A DNA stretch of 64,000 nucleotides. It comes from Alkalispirillum mobile (lineage in GTDB: Bacteria; Pseudomonadota; Gammaproteobacteria; Nitrococcales; Halorhodospiraceae). The first letter of the stretch is position 1, and each line of letters begins with the position of its first letter. The notes under the pieces were generated by a model. It ran no database searches and was not told where the DNA came from. It worked only from the letters and a program-made list of their open reading frames with translations. The stretch is taken from contig NZ_RCDA01000002.1 of NCBI RefSeq assembly GCF_003664325.1, forward strand, positions 248,001-312,000, given 5' to 3'. The position numbers were made by a program, and so were the translations under genes. Positions 40,963 through 50,443 of the stretch are shown piece by piece.

Positions 40963-41301
40963 TCATGCGAAATCCCGGTTCGGCATTAACCAGCCCGCTG
41001 AGGGCCGATGGCCTGCCTGTTCCGCTTCCTGGTAGCGCTGGATGAAGTCACCTACCAGCTGTTGCAGTGCCTGATCGGGGTCCCGCTCATCCTCCAGGTC
41101 CACCAGGCCAGGCTCATCCTGCAGCGGTGTCTGCAGAAAGTGACTTTGTTCATGGCTGATCCGGTGGCCATGAAGCTCGTAGTACAACCTTAGGCGCACG
41201 GTGGTTGGGATGGTGCCCAGGTTAAAGTCCAGCTCTGTCATGAGCTCCCGCGGTGCTTGTAGCAAGGGGTGCTTCAGGGCGGAGGCGTTGATTATCTGCA
41301 T
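40963..41301 (-). CDS. Unrecognised 112-residue protein divergent from the nos regulator
   Basis: I do not recognise this soluble protein. It has L-D-F-N-L-G-T-I-P-T-T-V-R-L-R-L-Y-Y-E-L-H-G-H-R-I-S-H-E-Q, an acidic middle (L-V-D-L-E-D-E-R-D-P-D) and W-L-M-P-N-R-D-F-A at the end; no membrane helix, signal or metal motif. GGGAG precedes the ATG. Its promoter region is shared with the Crp/Fnr-family regulator and contains the TTTG-N8-CAAA element, with TATACA (complement of 41340-41345) as a possible -10 facing this gene. It may belong to the denitrification regulon; this is inference. Confidence 0.6.
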   Translation of the reverse strand: MQIINASALKHPLLQAPRELMTELDFNLGTIPTTVRLRLYYELHGHRISHEQSHFLQTPLQDEPGLVDLEDERDPDQALQQLVGDFIQRYQEAEQAGHRPSAGWLMPNRDFA

Positions 41302-41367: not shown

Positions 41368-41383
41368 TTTGCTCTGGCTCAAA
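41368..41383. promoter_or_regulatory. TTTG-N8-CAAA palindrome in the regulator promoter
   Basis: TTTGCTCTGGCTCAAA has 4-bp inverted ends. It lies 28.5 bp (centre to first base) upstream of TAAAAT (41404-41409), which places its centre near -40.5, the position of a class II activator site. The nos promoter has the same arrangement at 42184. Confidence 0.6.
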
Positions 41384-41445
41384 TTGCAGGATAAAGTGTT
41401 CTATAAAATGTGCACAAAATGAATCTTACAGGAGTGATGGACACC

Positions 41446-42153
41446 ATGCCGCTGACGAAAAGCCACACGTATGCTGATGAGCTATCGGCCAGTCCCCTTT
41501 TCAATGGCTTGGCGCCCCGCCAGATCAGCGAAGTGCTGGGACGCGCCCAGCCGCATCAGCTCGAGGCGGGGGAGACTCTGTTCAATGCCGGTGAGACCGC
41601 CAACAGCTTTTATCTGCTTTACGCGGGTGCCATCAAATTGTTGCGTGGTTCACCGCAGGGGCAGGATGTGGTTGTCAGAATTCTGCGCCCCTTCGAACCA
41701 TGCGCTGCCTGTTCCGTGATCGGTAAGCAGGCCGCCCGCTTCCCGATTACCGCGCGGGCTTGGGAGGGCAGTGTGGTGCTGGCGTGGCCCGCCCAGGCGA
41801 TGCGTGAGGAACTCAAGCGGCTGCCGACGCTGCAGACCAACCTTCTGGAAATTGTCGCCCGTTATCAGGAGCAGACCGTGGAGAGACTCTGTGAGGCCTC
41901 CACAGCGCAGGTACCCCAGCGCCTCGCGCAGTGTTTGCTCCGACTGGCGGAACAGGCCGGAACACCGACCGCAGACGGTGTTAGGTTGGCGGATAGCATT
42001 ACCCGCCAGGACTTGGCAGAACTCTGCGGCACCACCCTGCATACCGTCAGCCGGACCCTCTCCGGCTGGGAGCGTGACGGCCTGGTCCGTGTGGGCCGGT
42101 GTCGCGTCACCCTTACCTCCCTAAACCGTTTACGGCTTCTGAGCGGTAGCTGA
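41446..42153 (+). CDS. Crp/Fnr-family transcriptional regulator next to nos genes
   Basis: The 235-residue protein has an N-terminal cNMP-binding-like beta-roll (G-E-T-L-F-N-A-G-E-T-A-N-S-F-Y-L-L), a dimer helix and a C-terminal HTH_Crp with Q-D-L-A-E-L-C-G-T-T-L-H-T-V-S-R. The recognition helix has H-T-V-S-R where Fnr has E-T-I-S-R, so an operator differing from the Fnr TTGAT half-site is expected. There is no N-terminal Fnr [4Fe-4S] cysteine set, but F-E-P-C-A-A-C lies in the sensor domain. Position suggests NO or denitrification control, as for DNR/NnrR. ATG 41446 is 11 nt after GGAG; ATG 41437 is too close to it. Confidence 0.85.
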   Translation: MPLTKSHTYADELSASPLFNGLAPRQISEVLGRAQPHQLEAGETLFNAGETANSFYLLYAGAIKLLRGSPQGQDVVVRILRPFEPCAACSVIGKQAARFPITARAWEGSVVLAWPAQAMREELKRLPTLQTNLLEIVARYQEQTVERLCEASTAQVPQRLAQCLLRLAEQAGTPTADGVRLADSITRQDLAELCGTTLHTVSRTLSGWERDGLVRVGRCRVTLTSLNRLRLLSGS

Positions 42154-42183
42154 TTGCCACTGCGACAGGTTGTCACACGGCTG

Positions 42184-42199
42184 TTTGTCCTGCCGCAAA
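42184..42199. promoter_or_regulatory. TTTG-N8-CAAA palindrome in the nos promoter
   Basis: TTTGTCCTGCCGCAAA shares TTTG, CAAA and four inner bases with the element at 41368 (12 of 16 identical overall). Its centre is 28.5 bp upstream of TATTAA (42220-42225), the same spacing as in the regulator promoter, and it lies about 92 bp before the cytochrome start. Confidence 0.6.
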
Positions 42200-42291
42200 G
42201 ACCAAGCGGCCTCTCTGGATATTAACTATGCGGCAAGGCGGGGCAGCGTGCTCCGTCCTGCTAATCGCATAACCAGAGAGGTAGGCAGGAC

Positions 42292-42606
42292 ATGGTCCAC
42301 AAACTTGTTCTAACGGCGGCATTTGGCGTAGCGCTGGCAATCCCGGGATTGGCTGCAGCAGGGGATCCCGAACGCGGTGCTGGACTGGTCGCCAGCTGCG
42401 TCGCCTGCCACGGCCCCGGCGGGCGCAGTTCCATGCCCCGTTATCCCAATTTGGCCGGTCAGCACGAGGCCTATCTGCTATCCGCCCTCGAGGCCTATCG
42501 CGACGGCGATCGCGAAGACCCCGAGATGGCGCCTCAGGTCATGCGTTTCGATGACCAGGAGCTGGCGGACATCGCGGCGTACTTCGCCGAGCAGGACTGC
42601 GACTAG
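42292..42606 (+). CDS. Periplasmic class I cytochrome c, first gene of the nos operon
   Basis: The 104-residue protein has a signal peptide (about 1-23), one haem-binding C-V-A-C-H (Cys36, Cys39, His40), a P-N-L-A-G-Q-H motif and a likely axial Met in D-P-E-M-A-P or Q-V-M. It resembles c553/c4-half cytochromes. Position at the head of the nos operon, 24 bp before nosR, suggests it passes electrons to NosZ. Dedicated nos cytochromes are better known from clade II clusters, so its presence here is notable. GAGAGGTAG precedes the ATG. Confidence 0.87.
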   Translation: MVHKLVLTAAFGVALAIPGLAAAGDPERGAGLVASCVACHGPGGRSSMPRYPNLAGQHEAYLLSALEAYRDGDREDPEMAPQVMRFDDQELADIAAYFAEQDCD

Positions 42607-42630: not shown

Positions 42631-44775
42631 GTGCTGAAAGGAACCCGCCAAACCCTGGGCTGGCTTTGTGCTCTCTTGCTGTTGGCCATGCCCTGGCAGT
42701 TAGGCGCAGCGGACTGGCTGGATGAAGTCCTACCCGGCGCCGACAAGGTGGGGGCACCGGAGGGGGAACCCCCGGTGCACCCTCTTTATGAGGACGGCGA
42801 ACGGGTGGGCTACGCCTTCGAGACCATCGAGATTGCCCCGATCGGCGCTTACTCCGGGAAGCCGGTCAACATGCGGGTCGGCATGGATCTGGATGGCTAC
42901 ATCACCGGCGTGCAGTTGCTGGAGCACTCCGAACCGATCGTGCTGATCGGGGTCCCCGACCACCGCCTGGTGGACTTCATGGACCAGTACGTCGGCAAGC
43001 ACGTGACGGAACGGGTGCGCGTGGGCTTGTCCCGTCGCCAGCGCGAGGGCTATGTCAGCGTCGACTCCGTGTCCAGCGCCACCGTGACGGTGGTGGTGAT
43101 GGGGGACTCCATTATGCGCGCGGCCCGCCTGGTGGCCCGCGAGCACGGCATTGTCGATGTGGATGTGGCCGCCCTGCGGGAACCGGCCACGGTGCGCGAG
43201 GATGTCTTCGAGGAGGCTGATTGGGCCGCCCTGAAGGAGATGGGCGCGCTGGGTCGCCTGCAGATCGCCCGGGGTGACGTGGACGAGGCCTTTGAGGGCA
43301 CCGACGCCGAGGGCGTGGACACCGCCCCCGACGGTGCCGAGGAAGAGACCTTCATCGACATCTATTTCGGCTACCTCAATGTGCCCACCATCGGTCGCAA
43401 TCTATTGGGTGACACCCAATACGAACGCCTCATGGATCGGCTGGATGAGGGTGAGCACCTGCTGGGGGTCATGGCCAGCGCTGACAGCGACTACTCCTTC
43501 AAAGGGGACGGCTGGGTGCGCGGCGGCGTCTTCGACCGCATGCAACTCATCCAGGGTGACCAGACCATCCAGTGGCACGACCGCGACCTGATCCGGCTGC
43601 ACCGGCTGGACACGAACAGCGCGCCGGACCTGGGTGAGAAGGAAATCTTCATCATCCGCGCCGATGCCCGCTTCGACCCGGCCAGCGACATGGACCTGGA
43701 ACTGCTGGTCCGCCGGCAGGTCAGCGCGTTGGACCGCATCAATGCCCGGTTCGAGGCCAGCTACCAGGTGCCGGAGCAGTTCCTCGATATCCCCGAGCCG
43801 CCAGCCAGCCTCGATGAGGATGACCGTCCCCTGTGGCTGACCGTGTGGGAGGACCGGGTGTTCGGCATCACCGTGCTGGCCGTCAGCCTGGTATTCCTGA
43901 CGTTCATCCTGCTCTTCCAGGATGTGCTCGCGCGCCGGCCGCGCCTGCTGTATTGGATACGCCACGGTTTCCTGGTCTACACCGTGGGCTTTATCGGCTA
44001 CTACGCCCTGGCACAGCTGTCGGTGGTGAACATCTTCACCTTCACCAATGCCCTGTTCACCGACTTCCAGTGGTCCACGTTCCTGATGGACCCCTACATG
44101 TTCATCCTCTGGAGCTTCGTCGCGGTGACGGTGTTGCTCTGGGGACGGGGTGTCTACTGCGGCTGGCTTTGCCCCTTCGGCGCCATGCAGGAACTCATCA
44201 ACGAGGTTTCGCGCAAGCTGCGGGTCCCCCAGTTCGAGATGCCCTTCGCGGTGCACGAGCGGCTCTGGGCGCTGAAATACATCGTCCTGCTCGGCCTGTT
44301 CGCCATCTCCCTGCATTCGCTGGTAGAGGCGGAGCGCTACGCCGAGGTGGAGCCGTTCAAGACGGCGATCTCCATGCAGTTCATGCGCGAGTGGGGCTTC
44401 GTGCTCTACGCCCTGGCCTGGCTCGGCATCTCGGTGTTCATGCGCAAGGCCTTCTGCCGGTACGTCTGCCCGCTGGGTGCGGGGCTGGCCATCCCGGCGC
44501 GCATCCGACTGTTCGACTGGCTGCGTCGGCATAAGGAGTGCGGCCAGCCCTGCCAGATCTGCGCCAACGAGTGTGAGGTGCAGGCCATTCACCCCGATGG
44601 GCGCATCAATGCGAACGAGTGCCACTACTGCCTGGACTGCCAGGTGACGTACTGGAACGACCGCAAGTGCCCGCCAATGATCGTTCGTCGCAAACGCCGG
44701 GAAAAGGCGGCGCGACAAGCGGAGGGGAGGGGCCAAGGCGCCTTCCCGACAGTGGAAGTGCCCCGAACCACGTAA
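42631..44775 (+). CDS. nosR: NosR, membrane flavoprotein and polyferredoxin for N2O reduction
   Basis: The 714-residue protein has a signal segment, a periplasmic FMN-binding domain with S-S-A-T-V-T (Thr151 as candidate covalent FMN site), a middle periplasmic region, about five membrane helices, two C-x-x-x-C-P motifs (C-G-W-L-C-P-F-G, C-R-Y-V-C-P-L-G) and cytoplasmic ferredoxin-type cysteines (C-Q-I-C-A-N-E-C, C-H-Y-C-L-D-C). NosR is needed for NosZ activity in vivo, probably by donating electrons. Its flavin is attached by an ApbE/NosX transferase, which is not encoded in this window. The GTG start follows GGAGG. Confidence 0.95.
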   Translation: MLKGTRQTLGWLCALLLLAMPWQLGAADWLDEVLPGADKVGAPEGEPPVHPLYEDGERVGYAFETIEIAPIGAYSGKPVNMRVGMDLDGYITGVQLLEHSEPIVLIGVPDHRLVDFMDQYVGKHVTERVRVGLSRRQREGYVSVDSVSSATVTVVVMGDSIMRAARLVAREHGIVDVDVAALREPATVREDVFEEADWAALKEMGALGRLQIARGDVDEAFEGTDAEGVDTAPDGAEEETFIDIYFGYLNVPTIGRNLLGDTQYERLMDRLDEGEHLLGVMASADSDYSFKGDGWVRGGVFDRMQLIQGDQTIQWHDRDLIRLHRLDTNSAPDLGEKEIFIIRADARFDPASDMDLELLVRRQVSALDRINARFEASYQVPEQFLDIPEPPASLDEDDRPLWLTVWEDRVFGITVLAVSLVFLTFILLFQDVLARRPRLLYWIRHGFLVYTVGFIGYYALAQLSVVNIFTFTNALFTDFQWSTFLMDPYMFILWSFVAVTVLLWGRGVYCGWLCPFGAMQELINEVSRKLRVPQFEMPFAVHERLWALKYIVLLGLFAISLHSLVEAERYAEVEPFKTAISMQFMREWGFVLYALAWLGISVFMRKAFCRYVCPLGAGLAIPARIRLFDWLRRHKECGQPCQICANECEVQAIHPDGRINANECHYCLDCQVTYWNDRKCPPMIVRRKRREKAARQAEGRGQGAFPTVEVPRTT

Positions 44776-44820: not shown

Positions 44821-46746
44821 ATGACGATGAGTGAGATGGACACGAAAAAGGCAACGATCGACGACACCGGGGGGCTACAGAACCCGGGTCGCCGTAAATT
44901 CCTCGGCACCACGGCTGCCGTGGGTGCAGTGGGCGCGGCTGGGGCCACCGGTACCGGCATGCTGGTGCGCAGTGGCGAGACCAGCGCCGCCCCGGGCAAC
45001 AGCAACGCGCACAAGGTGGGGCCTGGCCAGCTGGATGAGTACTACGGCTTCTGGAGCGGCGGCCATTCCGGCGAGGTGCGCATCTTCGGCGTGCCCTCCA
45101 TGCGCGAGCTGCTGCGCATTCCGGTGTTCAACTTTGACAGCGCCATCGGCTGGGGCATTACCAACGAGAGCAAGCGGGTGCTGGGCGAGAGCGGCGTCTT
45201 CCTCAACGGTGATACCCACCACCCGAAGGTGAGCTACACCGATGCCCGGTATGACGGGCGCTGGTGCTTCATCAATGACAAGGCCAACACCCGGGTGGGC
45301 CGCATCCGTCTCGATATCATGCGGACGGACAAGATCGTCACCATCCCCAATACGGCCTCCATTCACGGGCTGACCCTGCAGCGGGTGCCGAAGACCGAGC
45401 GGGTCTTTGCCGCCGGCGAGATGATCATCCCCACGCCCAACGATGGTCGCCACCTGGAGGATCCCAGCGAGTACTGGACGCTGATGACCTGCCTCGACGC
45501 CGAGACCATGGACATCAAATGGCAGGTGATCGTCGATGGCAACATGGACAACTGCGACACCGACTACGAGGGCAAGTACGTCGGCGCCACCTGCTACAAC
45601 TCCAACCGGGGTGTTACCCAGGAAGAGATGATGGGCCCGGAGCGCGACTGGGCGGTCATCTTCAACGTGGCCCGCATCGAGGAGGCGGTGGCCAACGGCG
45701 ACTACACCACCATCGGGGATTCTGACGTGCCCGTGGTGGATGGTCGTGGCGCGGACAAGGGTGGGTCCGATTACACGGTGTACATCCCCATCCCGCGTAG
45801 CCCGCACGGCTTCAACACCGCGCCGCCGGACGGCAAGTACTTCGTGGTCAGCGGCAAGCTCTCTCCCACCTGCTCGGTGGTGGAGTGGGCCCGCGTCGAC
45901 GACTGGTTCGACGGCACCATCACCGACCCGCGCGACACCGTGGTGGCCGAGCCCGAGGTGGGCATGGGCCCGCTGCACACCACCTTCGATGATCGCGGCA
46001 ACGCCTACACCTCGCTGTTCATCGACAGCCAGGTGGTCAAGTGGAACATCGCCGATGCCATCCGTTCCTATGACGGGGCCGATGTGAACTACATCCGCGA
46101 CCGCATCGACGTGCATTACCAGATCGGTCACCTGAAGGCGTCGCTGGCCTGCAGCCGCGACGTGGACGGCAAGTACCTGGCTTCGCTCAGCAAGTTCTCC
46201 AAGGACCGGTTCCTCAACGTGGGCCCGCTCCACCCGGAGAACGACCAGCTCATCGATATCTCCGGCGAGAAGATGGAGCTGGTGCACGACGGGCCGACCT
46301 ACGCCGAGCCCCACGACGCCCTGATGGTGCGCGCCGACCAGCTGGACCCGGTGAAGATCTACGACCGGGAAGACCCCTTCTTCGCCGACACCGTGGCCAT
46401 GGCCAAGGAAGATGGCGTGACCCTTGAGCGGGACAACAAGGTCATTCGCGATGGCAACAAGGTCCGCGTCTACATGACCTCCATCGCGCCAAGCTTTGGG
46501 ATCACCGAGTTCAAGGTGAAGAAGGGCGATGAGGTGACCATCGTGGTGACCAACCTCGACATGATCGAGGACCTGAGTCACGGCTTCGCGCTGGTCAACC
46601 ACGGCATCAACTTCGAGGTGAACCCGCAGCAGACCTCCTCGGTGACCTTCGTGGCCGACAAGCCCGGGGTGCACTGGTACTACTGCAGCTGGTTCTGCCA
46701 CGCCCTGCACATGGAGATGTCCGGCAGGATGCTGGTCGAGGCGTGA
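44821..46746 (+). CDS. nosZ: Nitrous oxide reductase NosZ (clade I, Tat-exported)
   Basis: The 641-residue protein starts with a Tat leader (G-R-R-K-F-L-G-T-T), which marks clade I. The beta-propeller carries the CuZ histidines (e.g. T-H-H-P-K and D-V-H-Y-Q-I-G-H). The C-terminal cupredoxin has the CuA motif Y-C-S-W-F-C-H-A-L-H-M-E-M, with Cys622, Cys626, His630 and Met633. It reduces N2O to N2 in the periplasm. An ATG at 44827 is an alternative start with better spacing from GAGAGGGCT. It sits between nosR and nosD. Confidence 0.97.
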   Translation: MTMSEMDTKKATIDDTGGLQNPGRRKFLGTTAAVGAVGAAGATGTGMLVRSGETSAAPGNSNAHKVGPGQLDEYYGFWSGGHSGEVRIFGVPSMRELLRIPVFNFDSAIGWGITNESKRVLGESGVFLNGDTHHPKVSYTDARYDGRWCFINDKANTRVGRIRLDIMRTDKIVTIPNTASIHGLTLQRVPKTERVFAAGEMIIPTPNDGRHLEDPSEYWTLMTCLDAETMDIKWQVIVDGNMDNCDTDYEGKYVGATCYNSNRGVTQEEMMGPERDWAVIFNVARIEEAVANGDYTTIGDSDVPVVDGRGADKGGSDYTVYIPIPRSPHGFNTAPPDGKYFVVSGKLSPTCSVVEWARVDDWFDGTITDPRDTVVAEPEVGMGPLHTTFDDRGNAYTSLFIDSQVVKWNIADAIRSYDGADVNYIRDRIDVHYQIGHLKASLACSRDVDGKYLASLSKFSKDRFLNVGPLHPENDQLIDISGEKMELVHDGPTYAEPHDALMVRADQLDPVKIYDREDPFFADTVAMAKEDGVTLERDNKVIRDGNKVRVYMTSIAPSFGITEFKVKKGDEVTIVVTNLDMIEDLSHGFALVNHGINFEVNPQQTSSVTFVADKPGVHWYYCSWFCHALHMEMSGRMLVEA

Positions 46747-46806
46747 GCCATCCGGGCGGGCCCTGCCTGAGTGCAGGGCCCGCTGGCTCTGATCAGCGAG
46801 GTCATC

Positions 46807-48120
46807 ATGTACCGATTACTCACATCAGTCCTCCTTACCTGGGGTCTGATGCTCTGTCTTGCCCTGTTGCCGACGGCCGCCGCCCAGACGATTGGGCCCG
46901 ACGACGGCGCATTGCAGGACCATATCGATGCCGCCGAGCCGGGTGCCGTCCTGACGCTGGCCCCCGGTACTTACGAGGGTGGCATCACCGTCGACAAACC
47001 CCTGACCCTGAAGGGGGAGCCCGGCGCCGTGATCGACGCGGCGGGGGAGGGGGACGTCATTCGTGTGGAGGCCTCCGATGTGCGCATCGAGGGCCTGACC
47101 CTGCGCCGCTCCGGCTTCAACCTGACCGACATGAACTCCGGCATCCACGCCGCGCGGGGCAGCCATAACCTGCACGTGGAGGGAAATACCCTCGAGGACG
47201 TGGCCTTCGGGGTCTGGGTCTGGCACAGCGAGCACCCCACTGTCGTCAACAACCGGATCACCGGCGACCCGACGGTCCGTTCCCAGGACCGGGGCGACGC
47301 CATCCGCCTTTACAATGTCAGCGGCGGGCTGGTGGCCTTCAACACCGTGCGGCACGCGCGCGACGGGGTATACATCGATACCAGCCGCGAGGTGGAGTTC
47401 CGCAGCAATCACTTCTCGGAGCTGCGCTACGGCATCCACTACATGTACTCCCACCACGGCCGCATCGTGGACAACACCACCACCCGTACCCGCAGCGGCT
47501 ACGCACTGATGATGTCCAACCACCTGGAGGTGGTGGGCAACCGCTCCCTGCGCGATCACAACTACGGGATCCTGCTGAACTTCGTCAATTACAGCACCAT
47601 CGAGGACAACCTGGTGGACCGCGTAACCGGCTGGGCCGGTGGTTCCACGCGGGAGCACGGGGTGACGTTGGGCTCCGAGGGCAAGGCGATCTTCATCTAC
47701 AACTCCCACGGCAACTCGGTGAGCGACAACCTGTTCGCCCGTACGGAGATCGGTATCCACCTCACGGCGGGTTCCAACCACAACCAGTTCCACGGCAACT
47801 CCTTTATCGCCAACCAGCATCAGGTGATGTACGTGGCCAACCGGGAGGAGGAGTGGTCCCACGAGGGCCGGGGCAATTACTGGAGTGACTACATGGGCTG
47901 GGACCTGGCCGGCGACGGCATCGGTGACACACCCTACGAGCCCAATGACGCCATGGACGGGGTGCTGTGGAAATACCCCATGGCCAAGATTCTGACCAAC
48001 AGCCCGGCGGTGCAGCTATTGCGCTGGGTGCAGCGCCAATTTCCGGTGCTACGCCCCAGCGGGGTGCGCGACAGCGCGCCGCTGATCGCCCCCCCGCACG
48101 ATCTGGAGGTGCTCAAGTGA
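46807..48120 (+). CDS. nosD: NosD, periplasmic copper-site maturation protein
   Basis: The 437-residue protein has a signal peptide (about 1-27, ending A-A-A-Q) and repeated right-handed parallel beta-helix rungs (H-N-L-H-V-E-G-N-T, N-R-I-T-G, N-L-F-A-R-T-E-I-G-I-H). NosD works with NosF and NosY in assembling the CuZ centre of NosZ. The ATG at 46807 follows GAGGT; an earlier GTG at 46771 would precede the signal peptide. Its stop overlaps the nosF start. Confidence 0.94.
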   Translation: MYRLLTSVLLTWGLMLCLALLPTAAAQTIGPDDGALQDHIDAAEPGAVLTLAPGTYEGGITVDKPLTLKGEPGAVIDAAGEGDVIRVEASDVRIEGLTLRRSGFNLTDMNSGIHAARGSHNLHVEGNTLEDVAFGVWVWHSEHPTVVNNRITGDPTVRSQDRGDAIRLYNVSGGLVAFNTVRHARDGVYIDTSREVEFRSNHFSELRYGIHYMYSHHGRIVDNTTTRTRSGYALMMSNHLEVVGNRSLRDHNYGILLNFVNYSTIEDNLVDRVTGWAGGSTREHGVTLGSEGKAIFIYNSHGNSVSDNLFARTEIGIHLTAGSNHNQFHGNSFIANQHQVMYVANREEEWSHEGRGNYWSDYMGWDLAGDGIGDTPYEPNDAMDGVLWKYPMAKILTNSPAVQLLRWVQRQFPVLRPSGVRDSAPLIAPPHDLEVLK

Positions 48121-49043
48121 ACGCCGTGGTGCAATTGCAATCGGTGGATCGCCATTTCGGTGCGGTAAAGGCCCTGCAAGGGCTGGACCTAGAGCTGAAA
48201 GAGGGCGAGGTGCTGGGCCTGATGGGCCACAACGGCGCCGGCAAGTCCACCACCATGAAACTCATCTTGGGGCTGATTCAGCCCACGGCCGGAGCGGTGC
48301 GCGTCTTCGGCCACGACCCGTCGGGCGGGGATTCCGCTCATCTGCGCGAGCGGCTGGGGTATTTGCCGGAGAACGTCAGCTTCTACGAGCAGCTCTCTGG
48401 GCGCGAGGTGTTGCACTACTTTGCCCGGCTGAAGCGCGTGCCTGTGCGGCGTGCCGACGAGTTGCTGGAAGAGGTGGGGCTGGGCCACGCGGTGCAGCGT
48501 CGGGTGCGAACCTATTCCAAGGGCATGCGCCAGCGGCTCGGCCTGGCGCAGGCGCTGCTGGGGCAGCCGCGGCTGCTGCTGATGGATGAGCCCACCGTCG
48601 GCCTGGATCCCATGGCCACCCGCGATTTCTACGAGACCGTGGACCGGTTGCGCGGCCAAGGCGTCAGCATCGTGCTCTGCTCCCACGTGCTGCCGGGCAT
48701 CGAGCGCCACATCGACCGGGCCGCCATCCTGGGCGGCGGGCGCCTGCTCGCCGAAGGCACGCTGGACCAGCTACGCCACGAGGCCGGCCTGCCCCAGGTG
48801 ATCCGCGTGCGGACCACGGACCCGCAGGGGGTGCAACGTCAGGCGGAAGGGGAGGGTTTTTCCACCCGCGCCGTGAACGGTCAGTCGGTGGAACTGCTCA
48901 CCGGCGACGATCGCAAGCTGGATGCCCTGCGCGGCCTGCTCGGCGGCAGCCACATCAGGGATCTGGAGTGGGAGCCTCCGACCCTGGAGCACCTGTACGT
49001 GCACTTCGACAAGCAGCTCGCGCTGCGGGAGGGGCAATCATGA
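48117..49043 (+). CDS. nosF: NosF, ABC transporter ATPase for NosZ maturation
   Basis: The 308-residue ATPase has Walker A G-H-N-G-A-G-K-S-T-T, a signature variant Y-S-K-G-M-R-Q-R, Walker B L-L-L-M-D-E-P-T-V-G-L-D and a switch His in C-S-H-V. With NosY it forms the ABC complex that acts with NosD in copper-sulfur centre assembly. The GTG start at 48117 overlaps the nosD stop by 4 bp (GTGA), and its own stop overlaps nosY. Confidence 0.94.
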   Translation: MNAVVQLQSVDRHFGAVKALQGLDLELKEGEVLGLMGHNGAGKSTTMKLILGLIQPTAGAVRVFGHDPSGGDSAHLRERLGYLPENVSFYEQLSGREVLHYFARLKRVPVRRADELLEEVGLGHAVQRRVRTYSKGMRQRLGLAQALLGQPRLLLMDEPTVGLDPMATRDFYETVDRLRGQGVSIVLCSHVLPGIERHIDRAAILGGGRLLAEGTLDQLRHEAGLPQVIRVRTTDPQGVQRQAEGEGFSTRAVNGQSVELLTGDDRKLDALRGLLGGSHIRDLEWEPPTLEHLYVHFDKQLALREGQS

Positions 49044-49867
49044 ATGCCGTGTTGACCGTGGCCACCAAGGAGTTCCGCGACGGCCTGCGCAACCGTTGGG
49101 TGCTGGCCATCACCGTGGTGTTCGCGCTGTTTGCCGTCGGCCTGGCCTGGTTCGGTGCGGCCGCCGCCGGCCACGTGGGCTTTACCGGGGTGGCCACCAC
49201 CGTGATCAGCCTGGCGACGCTGGCGGTGTTCCTGATCCCGCTGATCGCACTGATGCTGGCCTACGACAGCATCGTGGGCGAGGACCAGCAGGGCACCCTG
49301 TTGCTGCTGCTCACCTACCCCCTGTCACGCTCGCAGCTCATCACCGGTAAGTTCCTGGGGCACGGCGCCATTCTCGGCCTGTCCACCCTGGTGGGCTTCG
49401 GGGTGGCCGGGGCGGTGATCGGAGTGCTGGGCGAGGGCGTGAACACCGGGCAGTTGGTCATGGGCTTTGGCCTGTTCATCGCCAGCGCCCTGTTGTTGGG
49501 CTGGGCCTTCATCGGCCTCGCCTATCTGATCAGCGTGGTGGTGGGCGACAAGGCCAAGGCCGCGGGCCTGGCCCTGGTGGTCTGGTTCCTGTTTGTGCTG
49601 GTCTATGACCTGGTGCTGCTGGCGCTCCTGGTGGGCACGGAGGGCGGTGTGCCCAGCGGTGTCTTCCAGGCGCTGCTGCTCTTCAACCCCACCGATGTCT
49701 TCCGCCTGATCAATCTCACCGGCTTCGAGGCGGCACGGGAGTATGCCGGGCTGGCCTCCATCGCCGGCGATGCCTACTCACTGACCACCATGTTCCTGGT
49801 GCTGGCGGCCTGGGCCGTCGCACCCTTCCTGCTGGCCCTGTGCCTGTTCCGTCGGCGCACGGCCTGA
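49040..49867 (+). CDS. nosY: NosY, ABC transporter permease for NosZ maturation
   Basis: The 275-residue protein has six membrane helices and begins T-V-A-T-K-E-F-R-D-G-L-R-N-R-W-V, the ABC-2 permease N-terminus of NosY. It carries the conserved Y-D-S-I-V-G-E-D-Q-Q-G-T-L. It pairs with NosF. The ATG overlaps the nosF stop (ATGA), showing translational coupling. Confidence 0.94.
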   Translation: MNAVLTVATKEFRDGLRNRWVLAITVVFALFAVGLAWFGAAAAGHVGFTGVATTVISLATLAVFLIPLIALMLAYDSIVGEDQQGTLLLLLTYPLSRSQLITGKFLGHGAILGLSTLVGFGVAGAVIGVLGEGVNTGQLVMGFGLFIASALLLGWAFIGLAYLISVVVGDKAKAAGLALVVWFLFVLVYDLVLLALLVGTEGGVPSGVFQALLLFNPTDVFRLINLTGFEAAREYAGLASIAGDAYSLTTMFLVLAAWAVAPFLLALCLFRRRTA

Positions 49868-49879
49868 GGTGATGACCCT

Positions 49880-50443
49880 ATGTTGAATCGACGCACCCTG
49901 TTACTGCTGCTCTCCGGCCTGCCCCTGGTGGGGTTGAGCGGCTGCGGTGGCTCGCGCGGTGACTCGGCGGCCAACTGCTCACCCCGCCCCTTTGCTGCGG
50001 ACGAGAGCTGCGCGGTCTGCGGGATGACCATCGTGGAATACCCCGGCCCCAAGGGCCAGGTCTGCGTGGACGACGGCAATCGCAGCGTGGGCTTCTGCTC
50101 TACCAGCGATCTCTTCGCCTGGGTGCTGCAGCCGGAGAATGCCACTCGGATCCGCCAGGCCTATGTGCATGATCTGATGCAGACCGAATGGGAGCAGCCC
50201 GACGACAGTGCGCTGATCGTGGCCCGCAAAGCGCACTTCGTGATCGGTGATCCACGCATGGCCTCCATGGGGCCGGCCCTGGTGCCCTTTGGTGAGCGCG
50301 ACGCGGCCAAGGCCCACGCCGACGAACTGGAGGAGGGTCGGGTGCTGACCTACGACGACATCGACTGGGATGTATTGAATGACTTGACTCAGTCAATGAT
50401 TGACCAGCAACACCACAATGGTGGAGGACACCATGGTCATTGA
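49880..50443 (+). CDS. nosL: NosL, copper-chaperone lipoprotein
   Basis: The 187-residue lipoprotein has a lipobox L-S-G-C (Cys22) and the NosL copper-binding C-A-V-C-G-M motif (Cys44, Cys47, Met49). It delivers Cu(I) to the NosDFY-NosZ assembly. The C-terminal tail ends [12 protein letters not shown], a His-rich extension that may bind extra metal. Its 3' end overlaps the esterase gene by 11 bp. Confidence 0.93.
   Translation: MLNRRTLLLLLSGLPLVGLSGCGGSRGDSAANCSPRPFAADESCAVCGMTIVEYPGPKGQVCVDDGNRSVGFCSTSDLFAWVLQPENATRIRQAYVHDLMQTEWEQPDDSALIVARKAHFVIGDPRMASMGPALVPFGERDAAKAHADELEEGRVLTYDDIDWDVLNDLTQSMIDQQHHNGGGHHGH

Follow-up and report, generated by a model that had tools for sequence, protein, structure and literature searches.

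What switches on the reduction of nitrous oxide (N2O) in a bacterium in whose genome no NirK, no NirS and no nitric oxide (NO) reductase have been found? The question is raised by a locus of Alkalispirillum mobile that lies in the 64,000-nucleotide stretch analysed here (contig NZ_RCDA01000002.1, positions 248,001 to 312,000; hereafter the window). In this locus a gene for a Crp/Fnr-type regulator adjoins a nos gene cluster, and each is preceded by a 16-bp element of the form TTTG-N8-CAAA, designated site 1 and site 2, respectively. The reading that we favour, with a probability of roughly 0.7, is that both sites are operators of the neighbouring regulator, a protein assigned from its sequence to the NnrR clade, and that they would work by the mechanism proposed below.

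Two sites of the NnrR type

Exactly two matches to TTTG-N8-CAAA are present in the 64-kb window, at 41368 and 42184, and both fall in the gaps that precede the regulator gene and the cytochrome c-nosR-nosZ genes; in 100 dinucleotide shuffles of the window the mean number of matches was 0.12 and no shuffle contained two. Compared by eye, the sites are alike at 12 of their 16 bases, as a first-pass annotation of this DNA had stated. At the genome's own motif density, the probability of one site in each of two promoter gaps is about 3e-7, a post hoc value, the motif having been picked once both sites had been seen; the comparative evidence on relatives does not depend on this choice in the same way. 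An origin of site 2 by duplication of site 1 was considered and rejected, the alignment of the flanks being reduced to the 16-mer itself (score 8, matched in 55% of shuffles).

The same annotation had regarded the operator as unusual, which did not hold. TTTG-N8-CAAA is the core of the NnrR box of Alphaproteobacteria, published in 2005 by Rodionov et al. as ctTTGcgnnnncgCAAag (PMC1274295). Sites 1 and 2 reproduce this core exactly and each match the published box at 11 of 14 positions, the inner cg being partly kept. On this match, a novel operator family was rejected.

The box was also found around relatives of the regulator. The sample consisted of the best 80 of 573 relatives in named genomes, many of them from Bradyrhizobium, so that the 80 loci do not give independent counts. 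In 1.52 Mb around these clade members TTTG-N8-CAAA occurred 132 times, compared with 3-17 times for the same half-sites at spacings of 4-7 and 9-12. In 46 of 79 loci it was present in the 300 bp preceding the regulator gene (other spacings, 0-5; L102 was left out of this count for its short upstream sequence and kept for the nosR counts). All eight nosR genes within clade loci have TTG-N8-CAA in the 600 bp upstream, whereas 600-bp stretches picked at random from these loci contain it in 19% of cases.

The regulator and its clade

The open reading frame (ORF) of the regulator extends from 41410 to 42153 and opens at a GTG (41410); the ATG at 41446 was taken as the likely start. No cut-off of the curated family models was reached beyond Crp/Fnr-type domains. 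Residue 199, counted from this ATG, is a His that by alignment occupies the position of Glu in other Crp/Fnr members, a substitution correctly read in the first-pass annotation. In CRP, R180 and E181 are described as two residues tracking operator bases (PMC1274295), and it is with the Glu at 181 that the His aligns. Within the clade this His is usual: the recognition helix GTTLHTVSR is found in 72 of the 80 matches, L100 has GTTLYSVSR, and the remaining seven were not matched by the pattern (L052 reads GATLHTVSR). The best 40 matches in plasmid records are alphaproteobacterial proteins (36-42% identity, annotated as Crp/Fnr family or unannotated), and the plasmid-borne relatives have the same helix as the window regulator. 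In the four plasmid neighbourhoods that were opened, nirK, nor-type (so named on the basis of their products), nnrS or nos genes adjoin clade members.

In a midpoint-rooted maximum-likelihood tree, for which 70 rows were chosen, the window regulator forms one branch with the proteins of G002 and G004, two genomes of its own family, and of L100 (support 99/94). This branch adjoins the alphaproteobacterial clade (joint support 98/92); the order's remaining regulators and 22 further gammaproteobacterial rows fall elsewhere in the tree. L100, a Halorhodospira metagenome genome, is identical to G002, with the same coordinates. The gammaproteobacterial rows were drawn from 369 genomes, of which 75 matched the profile at E 1e-30; beyond the locus of the window, 29 loci were examined and yielded 22 readable proteins, and in several of these loci the recognition helix was missed by the search pattern. 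Judged from its sequence, the regulator is a member of the NnrR clade or sister to it. For the label NnrR we rely on gene neighbours, helix and box, because the rows of the tree include no reference protein named NnrR or DNR.

The regulator falls outside the DNR family, as it lies on a branch apart from the Glu-helix regulators of the order, which are taken as DNR-type from their helix and operators. It has no N-terminal Fe-S cysteine cluster of the FNR type, its cysteines being at 86, 89, 149, 163, 194 and 219 of 235. Its recognition helix is not Fnr/DNR-like, and a half-site other than the Fnr TTGAT, as had been predicted, is likely. Cys86 and Cys89 form a CxxC (window 41701-41712) without counterpart at that place in G002 and G004, for which a redox or metal role is conceivable. 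Six further Crp/Fnr-type matches are encoded in the genome (seven including the window regulator).

nos promoters of the order

Among 54 genomes of the order that were searched, 13 have nosR, including that of the window. The upstream sequence was read in 11 of the 12 relatives; the nos promoter of G004 falls off contig ends and was left out of the operator counts. All ten readable nos promoters from three other families carry TTGA-N6-TCAA, an FNR/DNR-type site that matches the NnrR box at 6-8 of 14 positions. The nos promoter of G002, the sole readable relative of the same family, carries TTTGCATTATCGCAAA, which has TTTG-N8-CAAA and matches the NnrR box at 13 of 14 positions; the G002 genome encodes an NnrR-like protein with Tyr for His, found away from nos. 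Against an FNR/DNR-type consensus, the sites of the window score 8/12 and 7/12 compared with 10-12/12 in the ten relatives, whose high scores are partly by construction, since this consensus was derived from them; for NnrR, the published consensus was used.

In nine of the ten genomes with FNR/DNR-type sites, the best regulator match lies in branches of the tree whose readable helices have Glu (G015 is absent from the tree). Operator type goes with regulator type at the orthologous nos promoter, and to judge from these sequences both appear to have switched together. The expectation that the motif would recur at orthologous nos promoters was thus borne out in part: it holds for G002, exactly, and for the eight nosR genes of clade loci in the form TTG-N8-CAA, but not for the ten promoters of other families.

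In the class II geometry of activators, the site centre lies near -41.5. The first-pass annotation had ascribed this geometry, with identical spacing, to both sites. The distance from the centre to the first base of a -10-like hexamer is 28.5 bp at site 1 (TAAAAT at 41404) and at site 2 (TATTAA at 42220). However, site 1 has an equally good hexamer, TATAAA (41402), giving 26.5 bp; the choice of the -10 is ambiguous there, and whether the spacing is identical hinges on the hexamer chosen. Eight of 13 promoters, comprising those of seven of the 11 relatives and that of site 1 (site 2 does not qualify), have TANNNT at 28.5-30.5 bp from the centre of their site, compared with a mean of 0.45 and a largest value of 5 of 13 in 2000 shuffles. 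These distances support a class II arrangement at nos promoters.

The site in the G002 nos promoter is at an estimated distance of about 64 bp from its copy of a 112-amino-acid (aa) gene that is divergent from the regulator gene in the window. Site 1 is separated from the start of this small gene by about 66 bp and from the likely first codon of the regulator by about 62 bp. When the site 1 promoter was aligned with the G002 nos promoter, p was 0.14 for the whole region and 0.019 for the downstream part, the latter being one of many comparisons; we rely on the similar position and on nothing more.

Table 1. Sites, hexamers and genes of the locus (coordinates of the window)
Feature	Position	Strand	Remarks
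Site 1, TTTGCTCTGGCTCAAA, NnrR-type box	41368..41383	no strand	11/14 to published NnrR consensus
TAAAAT, -10-like hexamer of site 1	41404..41409	+	28.5 bp from site centre
TATAAA, alternative -10-like hexamer of site 1	41402-41407		26.5 bp from site centre
NnrR-clade Crp/Fnr regulator (assigned from sequence)	41446..42153	+	235 aa from ATG; helix GTTLHTVSR, His codon 42040-42042
Site 2, TTTGTCCTGCCGCAAA, NnrR-type box upstream of cytochrome c-nosR-nosZ genes	42184..42199	no strand	11/14 to published NnrR consensus
TATTAA, -10-like hexamer of site 2	42220..42225	+	28.5 bp from centre; 4/6 to TATAAT
Small cytochrome c, first gene 3' of site 2	42292..42606	+	
nosR	42631..44775	+	NF046105, 1046 bits, above cut-off
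nosZ, twin-arginine translocation (TAT)-dependent nitrous-oxide reductase	44821..46746	+	TIGR04244, 1017 bits, above cut-off
nosD	46771..48120	+	TIGR04247, above cut-off
ABC transporter ATPase, probable nosF, start inferred	48117..49043	+	PF00005 and operon position
Probable nosY permease, ORF with uncertain start	48968..49867	+	operon position only
nosL	49880..50443	+	PF05573
Divergent 112-aa gene	40963..41301	-	no Pfam or NCBIfam match

The nosZ gene encodes the TAT-dependent type, which we take to be nosZ clade I. A homologue of the divergent 112-aa protein (40963-41301, minus strand) adjoins nos in 6 of the 11 relatives read, and its gene is possibly an unrecognised nos-linked gene. Site 1 may be common to this gene and the regulator.

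A proposed switch and its alternatives

According to the mechanism that we propose, a dimer of the regulator would become active upon a nitrogen-oxide signal, which in known NnrR proteins is NO, and would bind TTTG-N8-CAAA via the recognition helix that has His for Glu. Bound about 41 bp before the transcription start, it would recruit RNA polymerase in the class II way. Binding to site 2 would lead to transcription of the cytochrome c-nosRZDFYL genes, and binding to site 1 to transcription of the regulator's own gene, an autoregulation that we infer. In related genera an FNR/DNR-type protein and a TTGA-N6-TCAA site appear to serve the same nos promoter; here both would have been replaced.

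The window genome encodes NarG and NosZ. In this 99.7% complete genome no match to NirK and none to cytochrome cd1 (NirS) was obtained; a NorB query gave no match, the only PF00115 proteins being an aa3-type and a cbb3 oxidase. The control of nir and nor genes that is a trait of the NnrR clade has no counterpart found in this genome. Since no such targets were found, the view of the regulator as a functional equivalent of NnrR is weakened, but its clade membership is not, and it seems to be an NnrR-type regulator retargeted to N2O reduction. Among the ten relatives with FNR/DNR-type sites, six have a cNor-type match, three more have a long qNor-like frame (791-815 aa, so labelled from length and E-value only) and G022 has neither. 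No convincing NO reductase was found in G002 or G004, each 81% complete (G004 has a short weak match, E 8.8e-5). Two nnrS genes are present in the window genome. So are two molybdoenzyme pieces, each under the curated cut-off for the piece scanned: one ArrA-related (G000:C1:1533241-1534611, L177; 340 bits), which we presume might be an ArxA-type arsenite oxidase, and one TtrA-related (G000:C1:843523-844368, L180; 305 bits). In a survey, 30% of nosZ organisms were without nir, and those without both nir and nor mostly had nosZ of clade II (PMC4250227).

Compared with known systems, the locus is closest in clade, helix (GTTLHTVSR), box core and nitrogen-oxide respiration context to the NnrR proteins of Rhodobacter sphaeroides, Bradyrhizobium japonicum and further Alphaproteobacteria (PMC1274295). 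It differs from them in its gammaproteobacterial host, in the lack of any NirK, NirS or NO reductase found, in having nos as the adjacent target, and in inner box positions that depart from cg-N4-cg. In Pseudomonas, DNR, likewise a Crp/Fnr protein without the FNR cysteines, acts on nos (TTGATnnnnATCAA; PMC1274295), and relatives in the order of the window have a comparable site at a class II-like distance; in contrast, the window regulator is on another branch, with His for Glu and the operator TTTG-N8-CAAA. For Nitrosophilus labii, likewise an N2O reducer, a link between a Crp/Fnr protein and nosZ has been proposed (PMC11539149), but this organism is a thermophilic chemolithoautotroph with a clade II nosZ.

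Several observations weigh against the proposed mechanism. In the genome (2.95 Mb, 13 contigs), TTTG-N8-CAAA is not enriched, with 11 palindromic sites compared with 9 for a reversed control, nor is the looser TTG-N8-CAA (287 compared with 383), and neither of the two nnrS genes has an exact site within 1.5 kb. The genome-wide search proposed in the first-pass annotation returned the sites at the regulator and at nos but no excess, and the strength of these two sites is their location. Their inner bases (CT..CT and TC..CG) differ from cg..cg, and the site 2 hexamer is weak and does not fit TANNNT. Among 70 sites in front of the regulators of clade relatives, TANNNT did not peak at the class II distance (1 of 70 at 29.5), which leaves a common geometry for the autoregulatory site unsupported there. 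The regulator gene of G002 has no TTG-N8-CAA upstream, so autoregulation is not conserved, and the switched operator has been seen in two genomes only. By consensus scores, the eight nosR sites of clade loci comprise four that are NnrR-like, three FNR/DNR-like and one mixed, and the motif enrichment around nnrR genes may be partly due to FixK-type proteins.

Of the nine genome sites outside the nos locus, six are inside ORFs (L002, L003, L004, L006, L010 and L011) and three between them (L001, L005 and L007), according to mechanical ORF calls; a large genome-wide regulon is not claimed. L005 (L005:1501, G000:C1:1154122), about 127 bp upstream of a gene that by eye is porin-like and with a second porin-like gene on its other side, is the most target-like of them and possibly an extra target. 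Among the TTG-N8-CAA matches listed is an FNR-like site, TTGATGCAGGTCAA (G000:C1:688654-688667), about 110 bp past the 5' end of a ccoN match (cbb3 oxidase, G000:C1:687246-688541), which suggests that the genome also has a distinct FNR-type circuit.

The strongest ground for caution comes from Bradyrhizobium diazoefficiens, in which a direct action of NnrR on nos was discarded and FixK2 was found to activate nosR and nnrR directly via TTG(A/C)-N6-(T/G)CAA (PMC5582078, PMC6710368); there, an overlapping 14-bp palindrome at nosR has its axis 40.5 bp before one start site (PMC5582078). Accordingly, the sites of the window might be real activator operators used by an oxygen-responsive FNR/FixK-type protein and not, or not only, by the NnrR-like neighbour. 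Site 1 (TTGC-N6-TCAA) fits the FixK2 consensus, and the genome has the six further Crp/Fnr-type matches as well as an FNR-like 16-mer elsewhere (L010). However, the left arm of site 2 (TTGT-N6-GCAA) misfits that consensus, and an FNR-type protein shared by the order would leave unexplained why TTGA-N6-TCAA is absent from two NnrR-bearing genomes when ten related nos promoters are of the FNR/DNR type. We consider this explanation unlikely.

A doubtful alternative, to which we nevertheless give somewhat more weight, concerns site 1. It could serve mainly the divergent 112-aa gene, or repression of the regulator, so that there would be no positive autoregulatory loop and only site 2 would be of class II. 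The similar distances to the small gene in the window and at the G002 nos promoter agree with this, as do the lack of an upstream site at the G002 regulator and the ambiguous -10 at site 1. On the other hand, towards the regulator there is a -10-like hexamer at the class II distance, and the motif is found close upstream of the regulator gene in 46 of the 79 relatives. This alternative is compatible with the NnrR-type control of nos itself. That the likeness of the two sites is due to chance is highly improbable: the flat genome-wide counts and the post hoc choice of the motif would allow it, but the sites match a published box, are placed in both relevant promoters and have a position like that of the nos operators of the order, and enrichment around relatives is restricted to the N8 spacing.

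The box and the regulator clade are already known. For an NnrR-clade regulator paired with nos in a gammaproteobacterium without nir or nor found, and with an operator exchanged relative to its order, no earlier account was met in the literature consulted, and no claim to a first report is made. To our knowledge, the switch for N2O reductase in non-denitrifying N2O consumers has been little studied. Tentatively, and at somewhat less than even odds, the nos operator of the family may have gone from the FNR/DNR type to the NnrR type while the regulator was exchanged as well, nir and nor having been lost from the lineage or never present in it. The NnrR-type protein would then have become a regulator with almost no targets other than itself and N2O reduction, and would have to answer to NO from other organisms or to some other signal such as nitrite or N2O. 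The locus would be a natural experiment on how a Crp/Fnr regulator and its operator can be replaced jointly at an orthologous promoter, the helix having Glu or His (or Tyr). Small as it is, it lends itself to a direct test, since it combines a single regulator with two defined sites and related genera provide matched promoters of the other operator type, and the process under its control would be the removal of the greenhouse gas N2O.
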